Source: Marinobacter sp.
GTDB taxonomy: Bacteria; Pseudomonadota; Gammaproteobacteria; Pseudomonadales; Oleiphilaceae
Direction: 5' to 3'
Assembly (NCBI GenBank): GCA_014359475.1
Contig: JACIZI010000003.1
Location: 62,001 to 126,000, forward strand
DNA: 64,000 nt
The translations under genes were made by a program, and so were the position numbers. This document shows, in pieces, positions 13,457-62,437 of this stretch. The notes beneath the pieces were generated by a model. The model worked only from the letters and a program-made list of their open reading frames with translations, made no database searches and had not been told where the DNA came from. Positions within the stretch are counted from its first letter, which is position 1, and every line of letters begins with the position of its first letter.

Positions 13457-15427
13457 ATGCTGACTAAACTGCTGGTAGCGAACCGTGGGGAGATCGCGGT
13501 ACGGATTATGAAAACGGCCCGCTCGCTGGGCTACCGCACGGTGGCGGTATATTCCGAAGCGGACGCCCGGGCCCTGCATGTAGAGATGGCGGACGAAGCT
13601 GTGTGCATTGGTCCGGCTCAGGTAGCAGAGTCCTACCTGAACGTGGCGGCCATTCTGGATGCGGCCCGCAGGACCGGGGCGGATTGTGTGCACCCCGGGT
13701 ACGGTTTTCTGTCGGAAAATGCCGGTTTTGCCAGGGCCTGCAAGGACGCAGGGCTGGTGTTTGTCGGCCCGCCCGAGTCAGCCATCGAGCTGATGGGCAG
13801 TAAGCGTCGCTCGAAGATCGCCATGCAGGAGGCCGGAGTGCCGGTAGTGCCCGGTTTCGAGGGGGACAATGCCACCGATGAGGAGCTGATTGAGGCAGCG
13901 GCAAATATCGGCTACCCGCTGATGCTCAAGGCCTCGGCGGGCGGTGGTGGTCGCGGTATGCGGCTGGTGGAAAGTGAATCGGAACTGGCAGACAATATCA
14001 AACGGGCCAGGTCCGAAGCCCGTCAGGCCTTCGGTGATGATGAGCTTATTCTTGAAAAAGCCGTGATTGAACCGCGCCATATCGAGATTCAGGTGTTTGC
14101 CGATCGGCACGGCCATGCAGTCCATCTTGGGGAGCGGGATTGCTCGGTGCAGCGCCGCCACCAGAAGGTGGTAGAGGAAGCGCCGTCCCCGTTTGTGACC
14201 CCGGAACTCCGGCAGTCCATGGGCGAAGCCGCCGTGAAAGCCGCCCTGGCCTGCCATTATGAAGGCGCCGGAACCGTGGAATTCCTGGTGGACAAGAACC
14301 GGAATTTCTACTTCCTGGAAATGAACACCCGCTTGCAGGTAGAACACCCGGTCACTGAGCTGATTACCGGACAGGATCTGGTGGCCTGGCAGCTGGCAGT
14401 GGCCGAAGGTCAGGTGCTCCCTCTTTCCCAGGACAGCATCCGCCTGGACGGCCATGCCATTGAAGTACGTCTCTATGCGGAGGACCCTGCCAATCAGTTC
14501 ACGCCACAGACCGGGGAGCTGCTGGGATTCGCACCGGCTGAAGGTGACGGTATCCGCTTTGACAGCGGTGTGCGCGCTGGCGATCAGGTCACCCCTCATT
14601 ATGATCCGATGCTTGCCAAGGTGATCGCCTGGGGCAAGGATCGCAATGAAGCCCGACGCCGGCTGATCCGCGCACTGGAGGATACAACCATCTTCGGCGT
14701 GACCACCAACCGCTGGTTTCTGAGCCGTATCGTGTCCCACCCGACATTCGGTAAAGGGGAGGCAACCACCGCCTTCCTGAGCAAGGAATTCCGGGAAGAT
14801 GATTCGCTTTCTCCGCTTGAGATCAGTGAGCAGGAGCTGGCCCTCGCAGCAACCATTGCATGCCAGACTGACAATGGCAGGGCAGGCTGGAGTAATGCAC
14901 CGGCCACTGAAACGCCGGTGGTGCTTCGGTATCAGGACCAGACCTTTGAACTGATGGCGCGGCACAGCAGCGAACAGATGCTGGTACGCATGGGAGAGGA
15001 AAACCGGGAAATTACCCTCCGGAGTGCAAGCTCTGGCGTACTATGCATCATCGACAGGGGGGTTCGTCAAAGGTGCCAATATCAGCGGCACGGCGATGAC
15101 CTATATTTGCAGCTGCTCGGACGGGCGGTCATGGTAACCGATGTTACCCATCAGCCCGCTGCCGGGGCGACAAATTCCGGAAGCGGCCGGATACAGGCCG
15201 CCATGGACGGCGCAATTATCGACGTGCCGGTCAGAGCGGGCCAGGTCGTAAAACAGGGTGACACCCTGATGGTGCTGGAAGCCATGAAAATGGAACATCC
15301 GGTCAAGGCCGACCGGGACGGTGTCATCCGCGACCTGTTCGCCGGGGTTGGCGATCAGGTCAAACGGAATCAACTGCTGGCCGAGGTCGAAGCCGGTCAG
15401 TCAGCCGACACCGGCACGGACTCCTAG
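13457..15427 (+). CDS. atuF: Geranyl-CoA carboxylase, biotin-containing (alpha) subunit
   Basis: The 656-residue subunit holds the biotin carboxylase domain (about residues 1-445: ANRGEIAVRIMKTA, the ATP-grasp KASAGGGGRGMRLV, and FLEMNTRLQVEHPVTE) and a C-terminal biotin carrier domain with EAMKMEHP; Lys611 should carry biotin. It carboxylates biotin with ATP and bicarbonate, and AtuC transfers the carboxyl group to geranyl-CoA. The ATG at 13457 is used; the ATG four bases earlier meets a stop at once. The TAG stop (15425-15427) touches the first base of a repeat element. Confidence 0.88.
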   Translation: MLTKLLVANRGEIAVRIMKTARSLGYRTVAVYSEADARALHVEMADEAVCIGPAQVAESYLNVAAILDAARRTGADCVHPGYGFLSENAGFARACKDAGLVFVGPPESAIELMGSKRRSKIAMQEAGVPVVPGFEGDNATDEELIEAAANIGYPLMLKASAGGGGRGMRLVESESELADNIKRARSEARQAFGDDELILEKAVIEPRHIEIQVFADRHGHAVHLGERDCSVQRRHQKVVEEAPSPFVTPELRQSMGEAAVKAALACHYEGAGTVEFLVDKNRNFYFLEMNTRLQVEHPVTELITGQDLVAWQLAVAEGQVLPLSQDSIRLDGHAIEVRLYAEDPANQFTPQTGELLGFAPAEGDGIRFDSGVRAGDQVTPHYDPMLAKVIAWGKDRNEARRRLIRALEDTTIFGVTTNRWFLSRIVSHPTFGKGEATTAFLSKEFREDDSLSPLEISEQELALAATIACQTDNGRAGWSNAPATETPVVLRYQDQTFELMARHSSEQMLVRMGEENREITLRSASSGVLCIIDRGVRQRCQYQRHGDDLYLQLLGRAVMVTDVTHQPAAGATNSGSGRIQAAMDGAIIDVPVRAGQVVKQGDTLMVLEAMKMEHPVKADRDGVIRDLFAGVGDQVKRNQLLAEVEAGQSADTGTDS

Positions 15428-15506
15428 CAGCCTGTCGGATTTAAGCAATCGCCGCGAGCAAGATGGGAAGCAGCGCGGCAGATCAGCCTTAAGTCCGACA
15501 GGCTGC
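15427..15506. repeat. 80-bp inverted-repeat element (short copy)
   Basis: Near-perfect 19-bp terminal inverted repeats (15427-15445 and 15488-15506, one mismatch) with the core GCAGCCTGTCGG and TTAAG. The interior (GCAATCGCCGCGAGCAAGATGG onward) matches the reverse complement of one end of the 162-bp copy at 28254-28415, then jumps to the other end. It is therefore an internally deleted version of the same element. It starts at the atuF stop codon and may also act as a transcript-end hairpin. Confidence 0.85.
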
Positions 15507-15585
15507 CAGCAGCACCACCATGCTGTCGCCGCCAGGCATCCGGGAAACACACTCAGCTATCAACCTACCCCTGACGGACGACATA

Positions 15586-18238: not shown

Positions 18239-18641
18239 CCTGCATCGTTCGGGGCGGCCGCGAGAATCCGGCCTGCGAGCTCCAGCGTTGGAGTGGGGCC
18301 GTTATCTCTTTTCAGGACACGCCCGTGAACCCATCCATGGGGGGCCCGGGCGCAGCCATCCCTGGCTGCTTACGGTCCTGACAAGAGATAACGGCCCCAC
18401 TCTCATTAACTGCGGAGATATCTCCGGGTGTATAGCAGGGAGGACGACGGCCAGTAATTGTCAGGATACTGGCGGTACGTTTTGATATACGTTTACAGCG
18501 TAATTCCACTTCAAGGGACTGATAATTTACATTTCCGGCCTATCGCCGATCTTGGCGATCCCGGCCTGAGTCGGTAACATTGTCTTTTTTCCGACATCTT
18601 TTCCTTGTTGCACCTTTCAATTCCTGACCCGGGCGTTCGTC
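18239..18641. promoter_or_regulatory. 403-bp intergenic region with structured element
   Basis: This stretch carries no convincing gene. It contains the three-way-junction element (18291-18402), a perfect 14-bp palindrome CGGAGATATCTCCG (18413-18426), and an A/T-richer stretch from about 18480 that should hold the promoter of the purine permease. I looked for purine-riboswitch landmarks before the permease and did not recognise any. Confidence 0.5.
18291..18402. repeat. Three-way-junction inverted-repeat element, copy 1
   Basis: Outer arms 18291-18318 and 18375-18402 form a 28-bp stem with one mismatch. They enclose a 56-nt centre (18319-18374) containing two small hairpins, CCCATCCATGGG and GCAGCCATCCCTGGCTGC. 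Copy 2 (22193-22306) has the same 56-nt centre but an unrelated outer stem. One inner hairpin differs between copies by compensatory changes (CCC/GGG here, TAC/GTA there). It lies after one gene and before another on the same strand. Confidence 0.85.
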
Positions 18642-19940
18642 ATGCTTGAAAAACTGTTCCAGCTCCAGTCCCATGGCACAACGGTCCGTAAGGAAGTGGT
18701 TGCCGGCATCACCACATTCCTCACCATGGCCTACATTATTGTGGTCAACCCCAGCATTCTGTCCGCCACCGGCATGGATTTCGGCGCTGTGTTTGTGGCC
18801 ACCTGTCTGGCGGCCGCCATCGGCACCCTGATCATGGGCCTCTGGGCCAACTACCCTATCGCGCTGGCACCCGGTATGGGGCTGAACGCCTTTTTCTCCT
18901 TCACTGTCGTCGGCAGCATGGGCTACAGCTGGCAGGTGGCATTGGGGGCGGTCTTCCTGTCCGGCTTCATCTTCTTCCTGCTGAGCATTTTCAAGGTCAG
19001 GGAATGGATCATTAACAGCATCCCTCTGTCCCTTCGCTTCGGCATTTCTGCCGGCATCGGTTTCTTCCTGGCCCTGATCGCCTTCAAAAATGCCGGCATT
19101 GTGGTGGACAATCCGGCTACCCTGGTCGGCCTGGGCGATGTAAAAGTACCTGAGGCGCTGTTGTTCTTTGGTGGTTTTGTGTTGATCTGCGCCCTGTCCT
19201 TCCGGCAGATCACCGGCGCGGTAATGATTGGCATTCTGGCAGTCACGGTGATGGCGATGATGTTCGGCATGGTGGAGTACGACGGGTTGGTGTCCGCCCC
19301 ACCCAGCCTCGCGCCCACGTTTATGGAAATGGACATCGCCGGGGCCCTCAATGTGGGAATGGTGAGCGTAATCTTCGCTTTTCTGTTCGTAGACCTGTTC
19401 GACACCTCCGGCACCCTGATCGGTTCCGCCCAGCGTGGCGGCCTGCTGGATAAGGACGGCAAACTGCCCCGCCTGGGCCGGGCACTGATGTCGGATTCCG
19501 TCGCAACAATGTCGGGCGCCGCGCTGGGTACCTCGACAACCACCAGCTATGTGGAGTCCACCGCAGGCATTTCTGCCGGTGGCCGTACCGGTCTGACCGC
19601 CGTGGTCGTGGCTGTGTTATTCCTGGCCTGCCTGTTGTTCTCACCGATTGCCAGTGTCATCCCCGCCTATGCCACTGCGCCGGCACTGCTCTACGTCGCC
19701 GTGCTGATGGCAAGCGGCCTGAAACTGATTGACTGGGACGATATCACTGAGGCGGCCCCGGCCGTGGTCACCGCCCTGATGATGCCGCTGACCTTCTCTA
19801 TCGCCAACGGCATTGCTCTGGGCTTTATTACCTATGCGCTGCTCAAGGCGGCCAGTGGTCGCTGGTCCCAGCTTAATCCCGCCGTTGTGATCATAGCCGT
19901 GGTGTTTGTGCTGAAGTTTATTTTCCTGGAAGCGGCTTGA
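18642..19940 (+). CDS. NCS2/AzgA-type purine permease
   Basis: This 432-residue inner-membrane protein has about 12-14 hydrophobic segments and AzgA-family motifs: VAGITTFLTMAYIIVVNPSI near the start, APGMGLNAFFSFTVV, FVDLFDTSGTLIGSAQRGG in the middle and STTTSYVESTAGISAGGRTG near residue 305. It should import hypoxanthine, guanine or adenine by proton symport. The relic of an adenine phosphoribosyltransferase right behind it supports a purine role. A 10-bp hairpin overlaps its stop codon. Confidence 0.88.
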   Translation: MLEKLFQLQSHGTTVRKEVVAGITTFLTMAYIIVVNPSILSATGMDFGAVFVATCLAAAIGTLIMGLWANYPIALAPGMGLNAFFSFTVVGSMGYSWQVALGAVFLSGFIFFLLSIFKVREWIINSIPLSLRFGISAGIGFFLALIAFKNAGIVVDNPATLVGLGDVKVPEALLFFGGFVLICALSFRQITGAVMIGILAVTVMAMMFGMVEYDGLVSAPPSLAPTFMEMDIAGALNVGMVSVIFAFLFVDLFDTSGTLIGSAQRGGLLDKDGKLPRLGRALMSDSVATMSGAALGTSTTTSYVESTAGISAGGRTGLTAVVVAVLFLACLLFSPIASVIPAYATAPALLYVAVLMASGLKLIDWDDITEAAPAVVTALMMPLTFSIANGIALGFITYALLKAASGRWSQLNPAVVIIAVVFVLKFIFLEAA

Positions 19941-19949
19941 GCCGCTTCC
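19928..19949. repeat. Hairpin overlapping the permease stop codon
   Basis: GGAAGCGGCT and AGCCGCTTCC (19928-19937 and 19940-19949) are perfect inverted repeats around the TGA stop at 19938-19940. No T run follows, so termination would need Rho or be incomplete. It lies at the junction between the permease and the apt relic. Confidence 0.5.
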
Positions 19950-20084
19950 CGTCTGATCCGCCGCATTGGTGTGGAGATTGTCGAGGTGGCCGCCATGATT
20001 GACCTGCCGGACCTGGGTGGTTCCCGCCGCCCCGGGGAGGAAGATCTGGAGCTCTATACCGTCTGCTCGTTTACGGACGATTAA
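19950..20084 (+). pseudogene. apt: Relic of adenine phosphoribosyltransferase (apt) C-terminus
   Basis: Directly behind the permease, an open stretch of about 44 codons ending in TAA (20082-20084) reads LIRRIGVEIVEVAAMIDLPD followed by LGGSRRP. This is like the C-terminal part of Apt (the IVEVAxxIDLPDLGG pattern after the PRPP loop). There is no start codon, no ribosome site and no PRPP-binding segment, so only the 3' end remains. Its last bases fuse with a terminal repeat of the dispersed element (20081-20098), which may mark the deletion breakpoint. The identification is by eye and rests on a short segment. Confidence 0.6.
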
Positions 20085-20098
20085 GTCCGACAGGCTGC
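20081..20098. repeat. Solo terminal repeat of the inverted-repeat element
   Basis: TTAAGTCCGACAGGCTGC matches the right end of the elements at 15427-15506 and 28254-28415. No left end is present nearby. It supplies or overlaps the stop of the apt relic. Confidence 0.8.
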
Positions 20099-20177
20099 CA
20101 GGCCCTCCGACGCTGTGGCCAGTGGCGCGCCGGAGGGGGTAAACTGCTGCTGACCCGACCAAGGAATCAGGAGCATC

Positions 20178-20840
20178 ATGCAGGACTACCAGCATCACTG
20201 GAAAGACGGCACCCCCGTCCACCTCCCCCTCGGCAAGATTGTCTGTGTCGGGCGCAACTACGCCGCCCATGCCAGGGAACTGGATAATCCCGTGCCGGAC
20301 GAGCCACTATTGTTCATCAAACCGGCTAGCTCCGCGGCATATCTGACACGCCCCTTGAGAATCCCTGCAGGCCGTGGCTCCGTGCATTTCGAGACGGAAC
20401 TGGCGGTACTGATCGGACGTCCGCTGACCGCCGCATCCCCGGAGGAGACTGGCCAGGCCATTCTGGGATACGGGCTGGCACTGGACCTGACCCTGCGGGA
20501 TCTGCAGTCGCAGCTTAAAGCCCAGGGCCATCCCTGGGAGCGCGCCAAGGGTTTTGATGGTGCCTGCCCTCTCTCTCCGTTTATCAGCAGCGATCGGGTA
20601 GACCCCCTCACGGCCCGTTTCACCCTGGAAGTGGACGGCAAGCAACAGCAATCCGGTGACGCGCGGGAAATGCTGATGCCGGTACGGGAACTGATTGCCC
20701 ACATCAGCGGTCAATTTACCCTGATGCCCGGGGATGTGGTGCTGACCGGTACACCCAAAGGGGTCGGTCCGTTGCAGGCAGGACAGGCGTTGTCGCTGGA
20801 ACTCGGCGACGATTTATTTGTCGGGACTCATGTGGCATAA
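20178..20840 (+). CDS. Fumarylacetoacetate hydrolase-family protein
   Basis: The 220-residue protein matches the compact FAH family (YcgM/FAHD1-like). KIVCVGRNYAAHARELDNP begins the domain, HFETELAVLIG carries the metal-binding glutamates, and GDVVLTGTPKGVGPL is the conserved C-terminal motif. Members act as acylpyruvate hydrolases or oxaloacetate decarboxylases; the substrate cannot be told here. A GGAG site precedes the ATG. The ABC1 kinase-like gene starts 13 bp downstream, so the two are probably cotranscribed. Confidence 0.85.
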   Translation: MQDYQHHWKDGTPVHLPLGKIVCVGRNYAAHARELDNPVPDEPLLFIKPASSAAYLTRPLRIPAGRGSVHFETELAVLIGRPLTAASPEETGQAILGYGLALDLTLRDLQSQLKAQGHPWERAKGFDGACPLSPFISSDRVDPLTARFTLEVDGKQQQSGDAREMLMPVRELIAHISGQFTLMPGDVVLTGTPKGVGPLQAGQALSLELGDDLFVGTHVA

Positions 20841-20853
20841 GGCTGGGTACACT

Positions 20854-22161
20854 ATGAGCAAAAAACCGGTTACTTCAAGAAGCGGTCGTTTTTTCAAACT
20901 GGCCGGCATGACGGCCTCAGTGGCAGGCCAGTATGCAGGCCAACGGGCACGGCGGATGTTCCGGGGCGATGATGAAGTTGCCCGGTCGGAGAGTTATACC
21001 CGGATGGCTGGCCAGATCGCCGGCACTCTGGGAGAAATGAAAGGGGCGGTCATGAAGGTGGGGCAGATAGCCTCCCAGACCCAGGACTTCTTGCCCAAAG
21101 AGTTTTCCGATGCCCTCCAGACCCTGCAGAAAGAAGCTCCCCCTATGCCCTTCGAGGTGATTCTGGAGCAGGTGGAATCGGAACTGGGGAAGCCGGTAGG
21201 CGAGCTGTTCGAATACTTTCAGGAAACGCCCTATGCGGCGGCCTCTATCGGCCAGGTGCATCGCGCCCGGCTGCATGAAGGCACGGATGTAATCGTAAAA
21301 GTGCAATATCCGGGGGTAGATGAATCCTGCGACTCCGATCTCAGGCAGCTGCGTATGGCGTTGCGGCTGGGTGGACTGCTGAAGATGCCCAAGGCGTCGG
21401 TGGACCAGCTGTTCGGGGAGATCCGCGAGCGCCTCAAGGAGGAGCTGGATTACGAGAATGAAGCTCGCAATATCGAACTGTTCCGGGAGTTCCACAAGGA
21501 TCAGCCGTGGGTAGTCATTCCGGCGGTGGTTGCGGGCCATTCCTCACGACGGGTGCTGACCATGGAGCTGGTGGAAGGCGATCATGTGAGCAAGGTGACC
21601 CCGGACCGCTACAGCCAGGAGACCATTAATCTGATCGGCCACCGTATCTTCACGACCATGGCGGATCAGCTATTTCGCTTCCAGTGCATTCATGGCGACC
21701 CTCACGCCGGTAACTTTGCCTATCGGCCCGATGGCTCAATCATCATGTATGATTTTGGCTGTGTGAAGAAGCTGAAGCCGGAGATTGTGGATTCCTACTG
21801 CAAGGCACTGGTTGCGGCAATTCAGGAGGACTATCAGGCTCTGGACCGGCATCTGATTTCGTTGGGTGCACGGGTGGAGTCGCAGCCGGCGGTGGATGAG
21901 GGCTATTATGCGATGTGGCGGGATATTCTGATTCAGCCGTTTGCCTCTGATGAGCCCTATGATTTCTCGGAATCTGAGCTGCACAAGCATGTGGCCTCCA
22001 GGGCGCGGACGGTGTTCAGGTATCTGGAGTATTTCAAGCCGCCGGTGGAGAGTATTTTTATTGACCGGATGATTGCGGGGCATTACTGGATGCTGAAGCG
22101 GTTGGGGGTGCAGGCGGCTTTTCGGGAGGAGCTTCGCCGATACCTTGGGCTGGAGCACTAA
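20854..22161 (+). CDS. ABC1/AarF/UbiB-type atypical kinase-like protein
   Basis: This 435-residue protein has the signature features of the ABC1 family: the KxGQ motif (MKVGQIASQTQDFLPKEF, about residues 68-85), the Ala-rich loop (YAAASIGQVHRARL), the catalytic-like HGDPHAGNF and the DFG-like YDFGCVKKL. Family members support ubiquinone synthesis and have ATPase rather than classical kinase activity. It is not in a ubi operon here, so it may be a second ABC1 paralogue. The start at 20854 avoids overlap with the upstream gene. A three-way-junction element follows the stop. Confidence 0.85.
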   Translation: MSKKPVTSRSGRFFKLAGMTASVAGQYAGQRARRMFRGDDEVARSESYTRMAGQIAGTLGEMKGAVMKVGQIASQTQDFLPKEFSDALQTLQKEAPPMPFEVILEQVESELGKPVGELFEYFQETPYAAASIGQVHRARLHEGTDVIVKVQYPGVDESCDSDLRQLRMALRLGGLLKMPKASVDQLFGEIRERLKEELDYENEARNIELFREFHKDQPWVVIPAVVAGHSSRRVLTMELVEGDHVSKVTPDRYSQETINLIGHRIFTTMADQLFRFQCIHGDPHAGNFAYRPDGSIIMYDFGCVKKLKPEIVDSYCKALVAAIQEDYQALDRHLISLGARVESQPAVDEGYYAMWRDILIQPFASDEPYDFSESELHKHVASRARTVFRYLEYFKPPVESIFIDRMIAGHYWMLKRLGVQAAFREELRRYLGLEH

Positions 22162-22192
22162 CTCTGGCCCCAGCCTTTTAGGTTTGGTGCGG

Positions 22193-22306
22193 GTCAGACA
22201 GGGGGATTCCCTTTCCAAAACACGCCCGTGAATACATCCATGTAGGGCTCGGGCGCAGCCATCCATGGCTGCTTACGGTTTTGGAAAGGGAATCCCCCTG
22301 CCCGAC
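22193..22306. repeat. Three-way-junction inverted-repeat element, copy 2
   Basis: Outer arms 22193-22221 and 22278-22306 form a 29-bp stem with two mismatches. The 56-nt centre (22222-22277) is nearly identical to that of copy 1 but carries TACATCCATGTA instead of CCCATCCATGGG, a paired change that keeps the hairpin. The second inner hairpin is GCAGCCATCCATGGCTGC. It lies between two convergent genes and could serve as a two-way transcript end, although there is no T run. Confidence 0.85.
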
Positions 22307-28089: not shown

Positions 28090-28481
28090 TTGGGGTTACA
28101 CGCCTGTCATCAGTTTGGGTTCCATTGTGCAGGTTAAAGACTAGCACAGCCGGAGACCCGGAGGGCAGCCGGATATCCGACGTTTCCGTTATGGCCGCCG
28201 GCACATCACAACGCCTGTCACCGGAGCCATAGGACAGAGACCGGCTGTTTCCAGCAGCCTGTCGGGCTTAAGGCTAATCTACTGCGCCGGCGGGAAAACG
28301 GCTCATATTTCCCGGCTTTTTCGTTGCATAGAACCACTATGCGCCTCAAAATCCAGAAAATCTGCGCTCGCTTTCCCACCTTGCTCGCGACGATTGCTTA
28401 AGCCCGACAGGCTGCTAGTATTATGTGACCGGCCCGGATGGCCATCCGGATGATACGCAGAAGTAAATCACGGAGAAACCG
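28090..28481. promoter_or_regulatory. 392-bp divergent intergenic region with repeat element
   Basis: The region separates two divergent hydrolase genes. Positions 28254-28415 are a full-length dispersed inverted-repeat element. The remaining flanks should hold the two promoters; I see no clear -35/-10 pair. A GGAG site (28471-28474) precedes the ATG at 28482. Confidence 0.5.
28254..28415. repeat. 162-bp inverted-repeat element (long copy, MITE-like)
   Basis: Perfect 19-bp terminal inverted repeats (28254-28272 and 28397-28415) enclose a 124-bp interior without a coding frame. The interior contains a small hairpin (GCATAGAACCACTATGC). The right end in reverse complement matches the start of the short copy at 15427, and the left end matches that copy's end. 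No clear target duplication is visible. It resembles a non-autonomous mobile repeat whose transposase would lie elsewhere. Confidence 0.85.
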
Positions 28482-36676: not shown

Positions 36677-36710
36677 CAGCCTGCCGGACTTAAGCAATCG
36701 GCGCGAGCGA
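36677..36710. repeat. Half copy of the inverted-repeat element
   Basis: CAGCCTGCCGGACTTAAGCA and the following ATCGGCGCGAGCG match the left end and subterminal part of the element at 15427-15506. The right end is missing. It lies between the small membrane protein and the eIF-2B-fold gene. Confidence 0.75.
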
Positions 36711-61588: not shown

Positions 61589-62437
61589 TCAGGCAGGCGC
61601 AGACGATTGGAGCAATGCGAGGGATCGGGCGAGACTCTGGGTGACGGGCGCATTCAGTTTCAGATCCACAATCGGATCCGCCCGGGTTTTCCCCAGGTTC
61701 AGGGTGACAATGGGTTTGCCCCACTCCCGGGCATAGCGACAGAAGCGGTAACCGGAATACACCATGAGCGAAGAACCGACCACCAGCAGGGCATCGCTTT
61801 CCCGGAGTGCATTCAGTCCCGTATCAACACGCTGTTTTGGCACATAATCCCCAAAGAACACCACATCCGGCTTGAGAATGCCGTCGCAACAGGGGCAATT
61901 GACGACCCGGAACCCACTGAAATCCACTGAAAGGTCCGCATCACCGTCGGGTGCGGCACTGGCGCTGAACCCCAGGTAATCCGGGTTCATCTCACCACTC
62001 CATTCATGCACCTGATCCCGCGTACAAAGGTAGCCACAGTCCATGCAGATAACCCGGTCCGCCCGTCCGTGCAGGTCCACCACTCGCTGGCTGCCGGCTT
62101 TCTGGTGCAAACGGTCGACATTCTGGGTCACCAGCAGGGAGGTGCGGGATTCCAGATCCGCCAGATGATAATGGGCAGGATTCGGCCGCGCACGGCTGAC
62201 CACCAGCCAGCCCACCAGGCTGCGGGCCCAGTAACGCTGGCGAATCGGCTCGCTGCCCAGGAACTCCTGGTGCTGGACCGGTTGGCGGCGCTTCCATTCC
62301 CCTTTCTGGTCCCGGTAATCGGGAATACCGGAGTCCGTGGAAACACCAGCACCGGACAGCACCATCACTTTCGGATGCTGCTGGAGAAACTCCGCCAGCT
62401 GCTCTCCGGCAAGGTCCGGTGCCATCATCCGCGCCAT
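61589..62437 (-). CDS. Sirtuin with zinc site (SIRT4-like, class II)
   Basis: This 282-residue deacylase has the NAD motif VLSGAGVSTDSGIPDYRD, the TQNVDRLHQKAG loop, the catalytic His in DLHGRADRVICMDC and a four-cysteine zinc site (CMDC and, later, CPCC) with an insertion of about 40 residues between the pairs. It resembles the class II / SIRT4-like bacterial sirtuins. It differs from the first sirtuin in this window, which lacks zinc cysteines. The stop of the upstream DUF2059 gene lies two bases before the start. Confidence 0.87.
   Translation of the reverse strand: MARMMAPDLAGEQLAEFLQQHPKVMVLSGAGVSTDSGIPDYRDQKGEWKRRQPVQHQEFLGSEPIRQRYWARSLVGWLVVSRARPNPAHYHLADLESRTSLLVTQNVDRLHQKAGSQRVVDLHGRADRVICMDCGYLCTRDQVHEWSGEMNPDYLGFSASAAPDGDADLSVDFSGFRVVNCPCCDGILKPDVVFFGDYVPKQRVDTGLNALRESDALLVVGSSLMVYSGYRFCRYAREWGKPIVTLNLGKTRADPIVDLKLNAPVTQSLARSLALLQSSAPA

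Follow-up and report, generated by a model that had tools for sequence, protein, structure and literature searches.

Results

Two putative minus-strand RNA elements in a Marinobacter contig

The stretch of DNA analysed here (the window, 64,000 nt, positions 62,001–126,000 of contig JACIZI010000003.1 of a Marinobacter sp.) contains two long inverted-repeat elements that are, on well-supported grounds, copies of TwoAYGGAY (Rfam RF01731, clan CL00106), a known and little-studied RNA motif, encoded on the minus strand. With positions counted from the window start, element 1 (18291–18402) lies between plus-strand genes for an NAD(P)H-binding protein (PF13460, 17588–18238) and a permease (PF00860, 18642–19940). 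Element 2 (22193–22306) lies between a plus-strand ABC1 atypical kinase-like gene (PF03109, 20854–22161), with which it is convergent, and a minus-strand Sir2-family gene (PF02146, 22333–23010), which is upstream of the element RNA and on the same strand. The end of this gene and the element are separated by 26 nt.

An initial annotation, made from the letters of the sequence alone, had placed both elements at these coordinates, and an inverted-repeat search recovered them there. The arms of element 1 are 28 nt long and 96% complementary; in RNA sense, the 5′ arm is 18375–18402 and the 3′ arm 18291–18318. Those of element 2 are 29 nt long and 93% complementary, with the 5′ arm at 22278–22306 and the 3′ arm at 22193–22221. 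Both pairs of arms enclose a 56-nt centre holding two hairpins, which we call A and B, so that each element forms a predicted three-way junction. In element 1, the fold and the alignment place hairpin A at 18352–18369 with the RNA loop AGGGAU (18358–18363), and the alignment places hairpin B at 18321–18345 with the loop AUGGAU (18333–18338); both loops are closed by a C-G pair. In element 2, hairpins A (22255–22272) and B (22224–22248), supported by both fold and alignment, each carry the loop AUGGAU (22261–22266 and 22236–22241), and the stem of hairpin B is UAC/GUA. All four folds (two elements, two strands) were more stable than 200 of 200 shuffled sequences (z −8.5 to −9.7).

A computational recount found 50 of 56 centre positions identical between the elements, as had been counted by eye, and the second inner hairpin indeed differs only in its loop. 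The proposal that the arms share no sequence was overstated: the two elements can be aligned across 84 nt (82%), 12 of 28 arm positions are identical when the arms are aligned at their inner ends, and the pattern GGG-N5-CTTTYCRRRAC is common to aligned copies in the genome. Scanning the window for a third 28-bp inverted repeat (at most 2 mismatches, spacer 40–74, three innermost bases paired) yielded none and found each of the two elements in two registers.

The gap between the ABC1 and Sir2-family genes also varies among related loci. Loci L044, L064 and L083 have the element in this gap; L070 and L088 lack it and keep a short remnant (by eye), which would fit either a deletion or an empty site. 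Just past the ABC1 gene, L080 and L102 carry another subtype of the element, with the plus-strand loop ATCCAT and one around GTCC, that was missed by the genome-derived model described below. In the same gap at L046–L049 and L100, two of which are named Marinobacter pelagius, palindromic hairpins GGGGTCAGATGAA...TTCATCTGACCCC are present and there is no TwoAYGGAY core. The window also holds another dispersed family of repeats (about GCCTGTCGGACTTAAGCAATCG), in part arranged as inverted pairs, at 15393–15512, 28254–28449 and 36677–36708, and a similar stretch lies beside the element in L033.

Family assignment and copy number

Rfam at its gathering score gave no match anywhere in the window, and we therefore inspected matches below the threshold. 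RF01731 matched the minus strand of element 1 with 33.2 bits (E 0.0015) and that of element 2 with 37.4 bits. Over the whole genome (3.69 Mb in 85 contigs), RF01731 at E ≤ 1 matched 18 places, as compared with none of 14 control genomes, and one copy outside the window exceeds the gathering score (45.3 versus 43 bits). Sub-threshold matches of the elements to microRNA families were taken to be chance matches of long hairpins.

We built a covariance model, R1, from 37 copies of this genome, namely 49 rows of a first set minus 3 without the anchor, 5 with another core length and 4 running off a contig. Both window elements are among the 37 and match by construction (113.3 bits for element 1, 117.4 for element 2). 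With 150 of 1756 candidates scored, R1 gave 110 matches at 71 distinct places, 64 of them with at least 75 bits. Two pairs of contig ends (C18:59593/C5:86339 and C85:113953/C9:1) have identical centres, and each may be one split copy. About 70 copies are dispersed in this genome.

The copies share with TwoAYGGAY the outer stem, the two hairpins with NGGA loops, the order of the parts and the strand. Passages of PMC4333381 describe tandem G-A pairs in one stem and a poorly conserved external stem; such tandem pairs occur here in one allele class of hairpin A and are missing from its other classes. Our copies differ from the family in that loop position 2 is often G instead of Y, in their number and dispersal, in their head-to-head pairs and in outer arms that are almost perfectly complementary. 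Rfam classes RF01731 as ‘Cis-reg’, whereas PMC4333381, in the part available to us, proposes that TwoAYGGAY is a small RNA (sRNA) that binds and sequesters CsrA. In the accessible portions of other papers, the motif appears in a 2010 table (PMC2864571), is described as relatively unexplored (PMC11661157) and has its predicted pairs dealt with (PMC7657543, PMC11701678).

Both hairpins present a conserved CsrA-type loop

All 37 gapless aligned copies have a C-[ANGGAN]-G hexaloop at the tip of each inner hairpin. Over the 12 loop columns, the A and the GGA of both loops are invariant, and all four N positions, and no others, vary; by simple arithmetic, random placement of four variable columns would give this arrangement once in 495. 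At position 2, the loop of hairpin A has T or C in 20 of 37 copies, G in 15 and A in 2, and that of hairpin B has T in 15 and G in 22, so a strict AYGGAY is often not kept. The match to the exact CsrA pattern weighs against a purely DNA-level repeat, and a transcription terminator would not explain it.

The conservation extends beyond this genome. Searching 80 named loci, nearly all from Marinobacter, R1 gave 104 matches, which after removal of 7 opposite-strand repeats and 1 partial match left 96 copies; 92 of these have both C-ANGGAN-G loops. In a sample from outside the genus (20 high-scoring copies from 17 genomes, not a random draw), hairpin B has C-ANGGAN-G in 20 of 20 copies, and inspection by eye places GGA in the loop of hairpin A in 19 of the 20. 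In L140 the GGA of hairpin A falls in the stem, and a scripted count hence returned 20 of 20. At three loci (L029 ~1400–1500, L040 ~430–540 and L032 ~980–1050), a near-identical multi-hairpin insert of ~70–80 nt replaces hairpin B and removes its GGA loop; it resembles a second repeat nested in the element.

According to the part of PMC7652899 that we could draw on, in vitro selection (SELEX) for CsrA gave the consensus RUACARGGAUGU, mostly in hexaloops, and an ANGGAN hexaloop was seen by nuclear magnetic resonance with RsmE. ANGGAN in a hairpin loop at two or more sites, the pattern expected of a CsrA-binding RNA, is found in the aligned and the named-locus copies. The initial annotation had read the change from CCCATCCATGGG to TACATCCATGTA in the inner hairpin as compensatory. 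The double change itself is real, and we read it as a free stem beneath a fixed loop: the loop has the shape of a CsrA site, so the stem may change so long as the loop is presented. Across the 37 copies, the stem of hairpin B is CCC/GGG in 19, UAC/GUA in 17 and a further variant in one.

This genome has one CsrA gene. In a sample of the order, CsrA is present in 71 of 72 R1-positive and 111 of 122 R1-negative genomes (Fisher p 0.034). The CsrA sponges CsrB/CsrC and RsmX/RsmY/RsmZ are encoded at one or few loci with many sites each. The elements differ from them in being spread over many loci, each offering a pair of sites enclosed by a long stem, and in that no dedicated promoter was found at the window copies. 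GGA loops and a proposed titration of CsrA are common to both (PMC4333381 and PMC7652899, each as far as available).

Structure and RNA strand

In the consensus structure of the 37 copies, 94.0% of cells are paired, and the outer helix is paired in 95.4%. The initial annotation had named copies without complementary outer arms as what would refute a structure-conserving element; no such copy is among the 37. Double changes occur at 32 of 44 pairs, and the covariation score is 0.644 as compared with 0.164 for shuffled and at most 0.140 for slid alignments.

Mismatches in the outer part of the stem point to the minus strand as the RNA strand. Read on that strand, G-U exceeds A-C by 25:2 in 44 copies of this genome (positions 21–27 from the core, p 6e-6) and by 29:2 in the 96 named-locus copies (positions 3–9 from the outside, p 5e-7). 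The outermost positions 1–2 are mostly unpaired and were for that reason set aside, after their state had been seen, and the tests assume mutation without strand bias. Deamination of the non-template strand linked to transcription could give the same bias; it would also need transcription in this direction.

Arm evolution and possible template switching

The inner 20 bp of the stem are Watson-Crick paired in 852 of 872 cells of the copies in this genome and in 1889 of 1920 cells of the named-locus copies (~98%). Here G-U is about as rare as A-C, though many columns hold all four pair types. We compared 28 orthologue pairs, each element being used once and flanks being at least 70% alike. Of 560 inner pair positions, 484 are unchanged, 68 show double changes and 8 show single changes. 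When 27 positions are considered, there are 98 doubles, of which 58 are of the transversion type and cannot be bridged by G-U (another count gave 99 doubles, a difference probably due to hand-entered shifts). In the 20 pairs with at most 4 doubles, there are 12 double and 6 single inner changes, and core identity is 0.978; the other 8 pairs have 56 double and 2 single inner changes and a mean core identity of 0.894.

Two comparisons stand out. The core of L052 (flanks 90% alike) is the exact reverse complement of that of L059, yet only one double and one single change separate the arms; the sources of L059 and L052 are Marinobacter sp. S0848L and M. litoralis Sw-45. Between L090 and L098, with flanks 86% alike, the core is identical and the arms show three clustered doubles and no single change. 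Accessible passages of PMC8604942 describe arm homogenisation together with spacer inversion as the hallmark of a polymerase switching templates between inverted repeats, and those of PMC8794818 propose that template switching maintains RNA hairpins. The systems treated there, so far as these passages go, have short arms in yeast genes and ribosomal RNA or microRNA stems; ours share with them the homogenised arms and the inverted spacer, and differ in having 28-bp arms around a 56–57-nt spacer in a repeated bacterial element.

Whether template switching between the arms is the main cause of their perfection is, judging from these comparisons, a matter on which the odds are about even. The arms might instead be kept by compensatory selection, or by replacement of the whole element with another copy through recombination or re-insertion, an account that we consider possible but doubtful. 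The distribution of double changes weighs in its favour and against our own: it is bimodal, with 81 of 99 doubles in 8 of the 28 pairs, and the cores of these 8 pairs are less similar, so whole-element replacement may explain them. Many paralogues are available as donors, and flank motifs are partly common to the copies. Compensatory selection alone should, however, leave G-U intermediates, and the inner 20 bp hold 9 G-U and 6 A-C in the 1920 named-locus cells; nor does it sit easily with the transversion-type majority of doubles. Replacement, for its part, leaves unexplained the exact core inversion between the near-identical arms of L052 and L059, and also the L090/L098 pair.

The initial annotation had envisaged a mechanism that makes an inverted copy of flanking DNA at each insertion. 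A DNA process acting between the arms is in keeping with the paired double changes and the core inversion. The insertion-linked form of the idea found no support because the arms share a family pattern and 20 of 28 orthologue pairs have at most 4 doubles; at orthologous sites the arms are mostly inherited.

Distribution in the genus and order, and possible mobility

R1 matched 60 of 61 Marinobacter genomes, with at least 50 matches in 37 of them (61 candidates were scored per genome, and one place may count on both strands). Three genomes (G012, G019, G025) have 3 matches each and one (G048) has none. In the order, R1 matched 72 of 194 genomes in 42 of 96 genera, with 19 candidates scored per genome. 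RF01731 matched 29 of the 194, with 16 over the gathering score and 8 with at least 10 matches; 13 candidates were scored per genome, a setting at which our own genome shows none.

The high copy number, which differs widely between genomes of the genus (from no match to at least 61), would also fit a mobile repeat of the repetitive extragenic palindromic (REP) or REPIN kind, or a cruciform. On that view, some unknown enzyme would recognise the hairpins in DNA form, and the GGA loops would have no role in RNA. All 13 pairs of neighbouring places in this genome with a separation below 700 nt (26 copies) are arranged 5′-to-5′, that is, head-to-head, like the REP dimers described in the available text of PMC3733652. 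The named loci show the same arrangement in 30 of 30 close pairs, which are not independent because they largely represent one inherited site. The elements further resemble REPs in being repeated and palindromic, and the core starts with CGT, near the CGTC tag, which is a resemblance only. We nevertheless regard this explanation as unlikely. Against the 20–40 bp palindrome with a GTAG/CGTC tag that defines REPs, the paired part of the element is by itself ~114 nt and has a three-way structure with a conserved centre, and its length and variable 28-bp arms are unlike the REPs that PMC3733652 describes in the portion at hand. Its mismatches in the outer stem prefer G-U on one strand, and its loops follow the CsrA pattern. 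No transposase tracks copy number: the Y1 transposase (Y1_Tnp, PF01797) is missing from 27 of the 61 genus genomes, 15 of which have at least 50 R1 matches, and its occurrence is uncorrelated with R1 matches over the 61 genomes (Spearman 0.005, p 0.97, R1 counts having at most 61 candidates per genome). A REP-associated (RAYT) or other Y1 transposase was accordingly rejected as the mobiliser.

Gene context and transcription signals

Genes were called with a codon-score script rather than a published gene finder. One of the 70 places with sequence available overlaps a called gene; the others are intergenic. Of the 53 copies for which both neighbours are known, 38 share their strand with the gene that lies upstream as seen from the RNA; among the 31 single copies, 23 do (p 0.011). 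A gene edge lies at 20–60 nt from the 3′ side of the RNA in 32 of 64 copies; for the 5′ side, the figure is 12 of 60.

The distance of the 3′ side from gene edges, together with the rarity of divergent gene pairs around the element (5 of 53 copies with both neighbours known) and the very stable stems, would suit a transcription terminator or 3′-end stabiliser, a long hairpin that protects or ends transcripts and whose loops are incidental. A scan limited to loops of 3–8 nt, and so blind to the whole element, found no U-tract intrinsic terminator at either window element. A terminator or stabiliser would also leave the invariant ANGGAN loops of both hairpins without explanation, and we judge it very unlikely.

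In 18 of 59 copies, the 5′ flank carries the motif GGCGATATC (at most 2 mismatches) between −34 and −14 relative to the stem; 200 rounds of base shuffling gave a mean of 1.8 and a maximum of 6. Its use as a promoter of the element was considered and rejected: visual inspection showed no −35 partner, neither window copy has a sigma-70-like match, and there is no extra conservation on the 5′ side. The motif perhaps marks the edge of the element.

Discussion

Taking the observed family match, the conserved loops and structure, the copy number and the orientation statistics together, we think it probable that the elements are dispersed TwoAYGGAY RNAs of the CsrA type, read from the minus strand, that titrate CsrA or mark transcript ends; for a part of template switching in keeping the arms, the odds are about even. 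The initial annotation had offered selection on structure, in the form of either a cruciform DNA or an RNA device. The family match and the loops favour a minus-strand RNA device, and the cruciform belongs with the mobile-repeat alternative discussed above.

As we picture it, each element would encode a long outer stem with hairpins A and B at a three-way junction. Both hairpins would present a C-G-closed ANGGAN hexaloop of the shape bound by CsrA/RsmA proteins, and since the two hairpins are in one RNA, both sites could be offered to one CsrA dimer. Read-through from the neighbouring gene that is oriented like the RNA would probably produce the transcript, and the copies would jointly act by titrating CsrA or by marking the ends of transcripts for it. 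The outer stem would be required only as a stem; this, and in part template switching, would be why the arms vary in sequence yet stay complementary. Switching between the inverted arms would re-match them and sometimes invert the core. Transcription, CsrA binding, a sponge or 3′-end role and the means of spread are what we infer from the sequences.

Several observations weigh against this interpretation. Both window copies score below the 43-bit gathering score of RF01731. The structure scored for covariation was drawn from the same sequences, and further pair types are barely more frequent than in shuffles (82 versus 77.0, a value reached by 42 of 500). The G-U excess is confined to the outer stem: over all 29 positions of the 96 named-locus copies, G-U to A-C is 53:41 (p 0.26), and the counts given above for the inner 20 bp show no bias. 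One-arm stretches that look like remnants occur in other species (L108 and L116, by eye). No sigma-70-like promoter was found at either window element, and conservation of the 5′ side does not exceed that of the 3′ side (0.786 versus 0.826, p 0.058, in 22 orthologue comparisons, mostly of paired copies). Genome G242 (88% complete) matches R1 and G122 has one sub-threshold RF01731 match, and CsrA was detected in neither. Finally, some stems of hairpin A are long and stable, which may disfavour CsrA according to the SELEX work as described in the available part of PMC7652899.

As a separate observation, a lone stretch resembling the left arm lies beside a full copy at L036 (~1530–1610), as if left by a deleted element.

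A more elaborate version would make the ~70 copies a dispersed layer of CsrA control, in which two-site decoys have their stems repaired arm-to-arm by template switching and core flips give the transcribed strand its GGA loops or take them away, so that CsrA binding would be phase-switched gene by gene. We consider this quite unlikely.

In the open-licence literature, we found no functional test of TwoAYGGAY, no dispersed CsrA-binding repeat and no Marinobacter repeat, and the words Marinobacter, CsrA and Rfam are absent from a survey of REPs (PMC12306157). The family is known; its copy number, pair arrangement, arm behaviour and core inversion were not found in print within that literature.

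A high-copy element with CsrA-consensus loops in much of the genus has a role that is testable in Marinobacter cultures. Should the elements bind CsrA, a dispersed repeat family, and not just a small set of dedicated sRNAs, would help to set the cellular pool of CsrA sites. With their conserved cores and free arms, the numerous copies are in addition a natural experiment on how long RNA stems change while their pairing is kept, a question tied to the long-standing puzzle of compensatory substitution.

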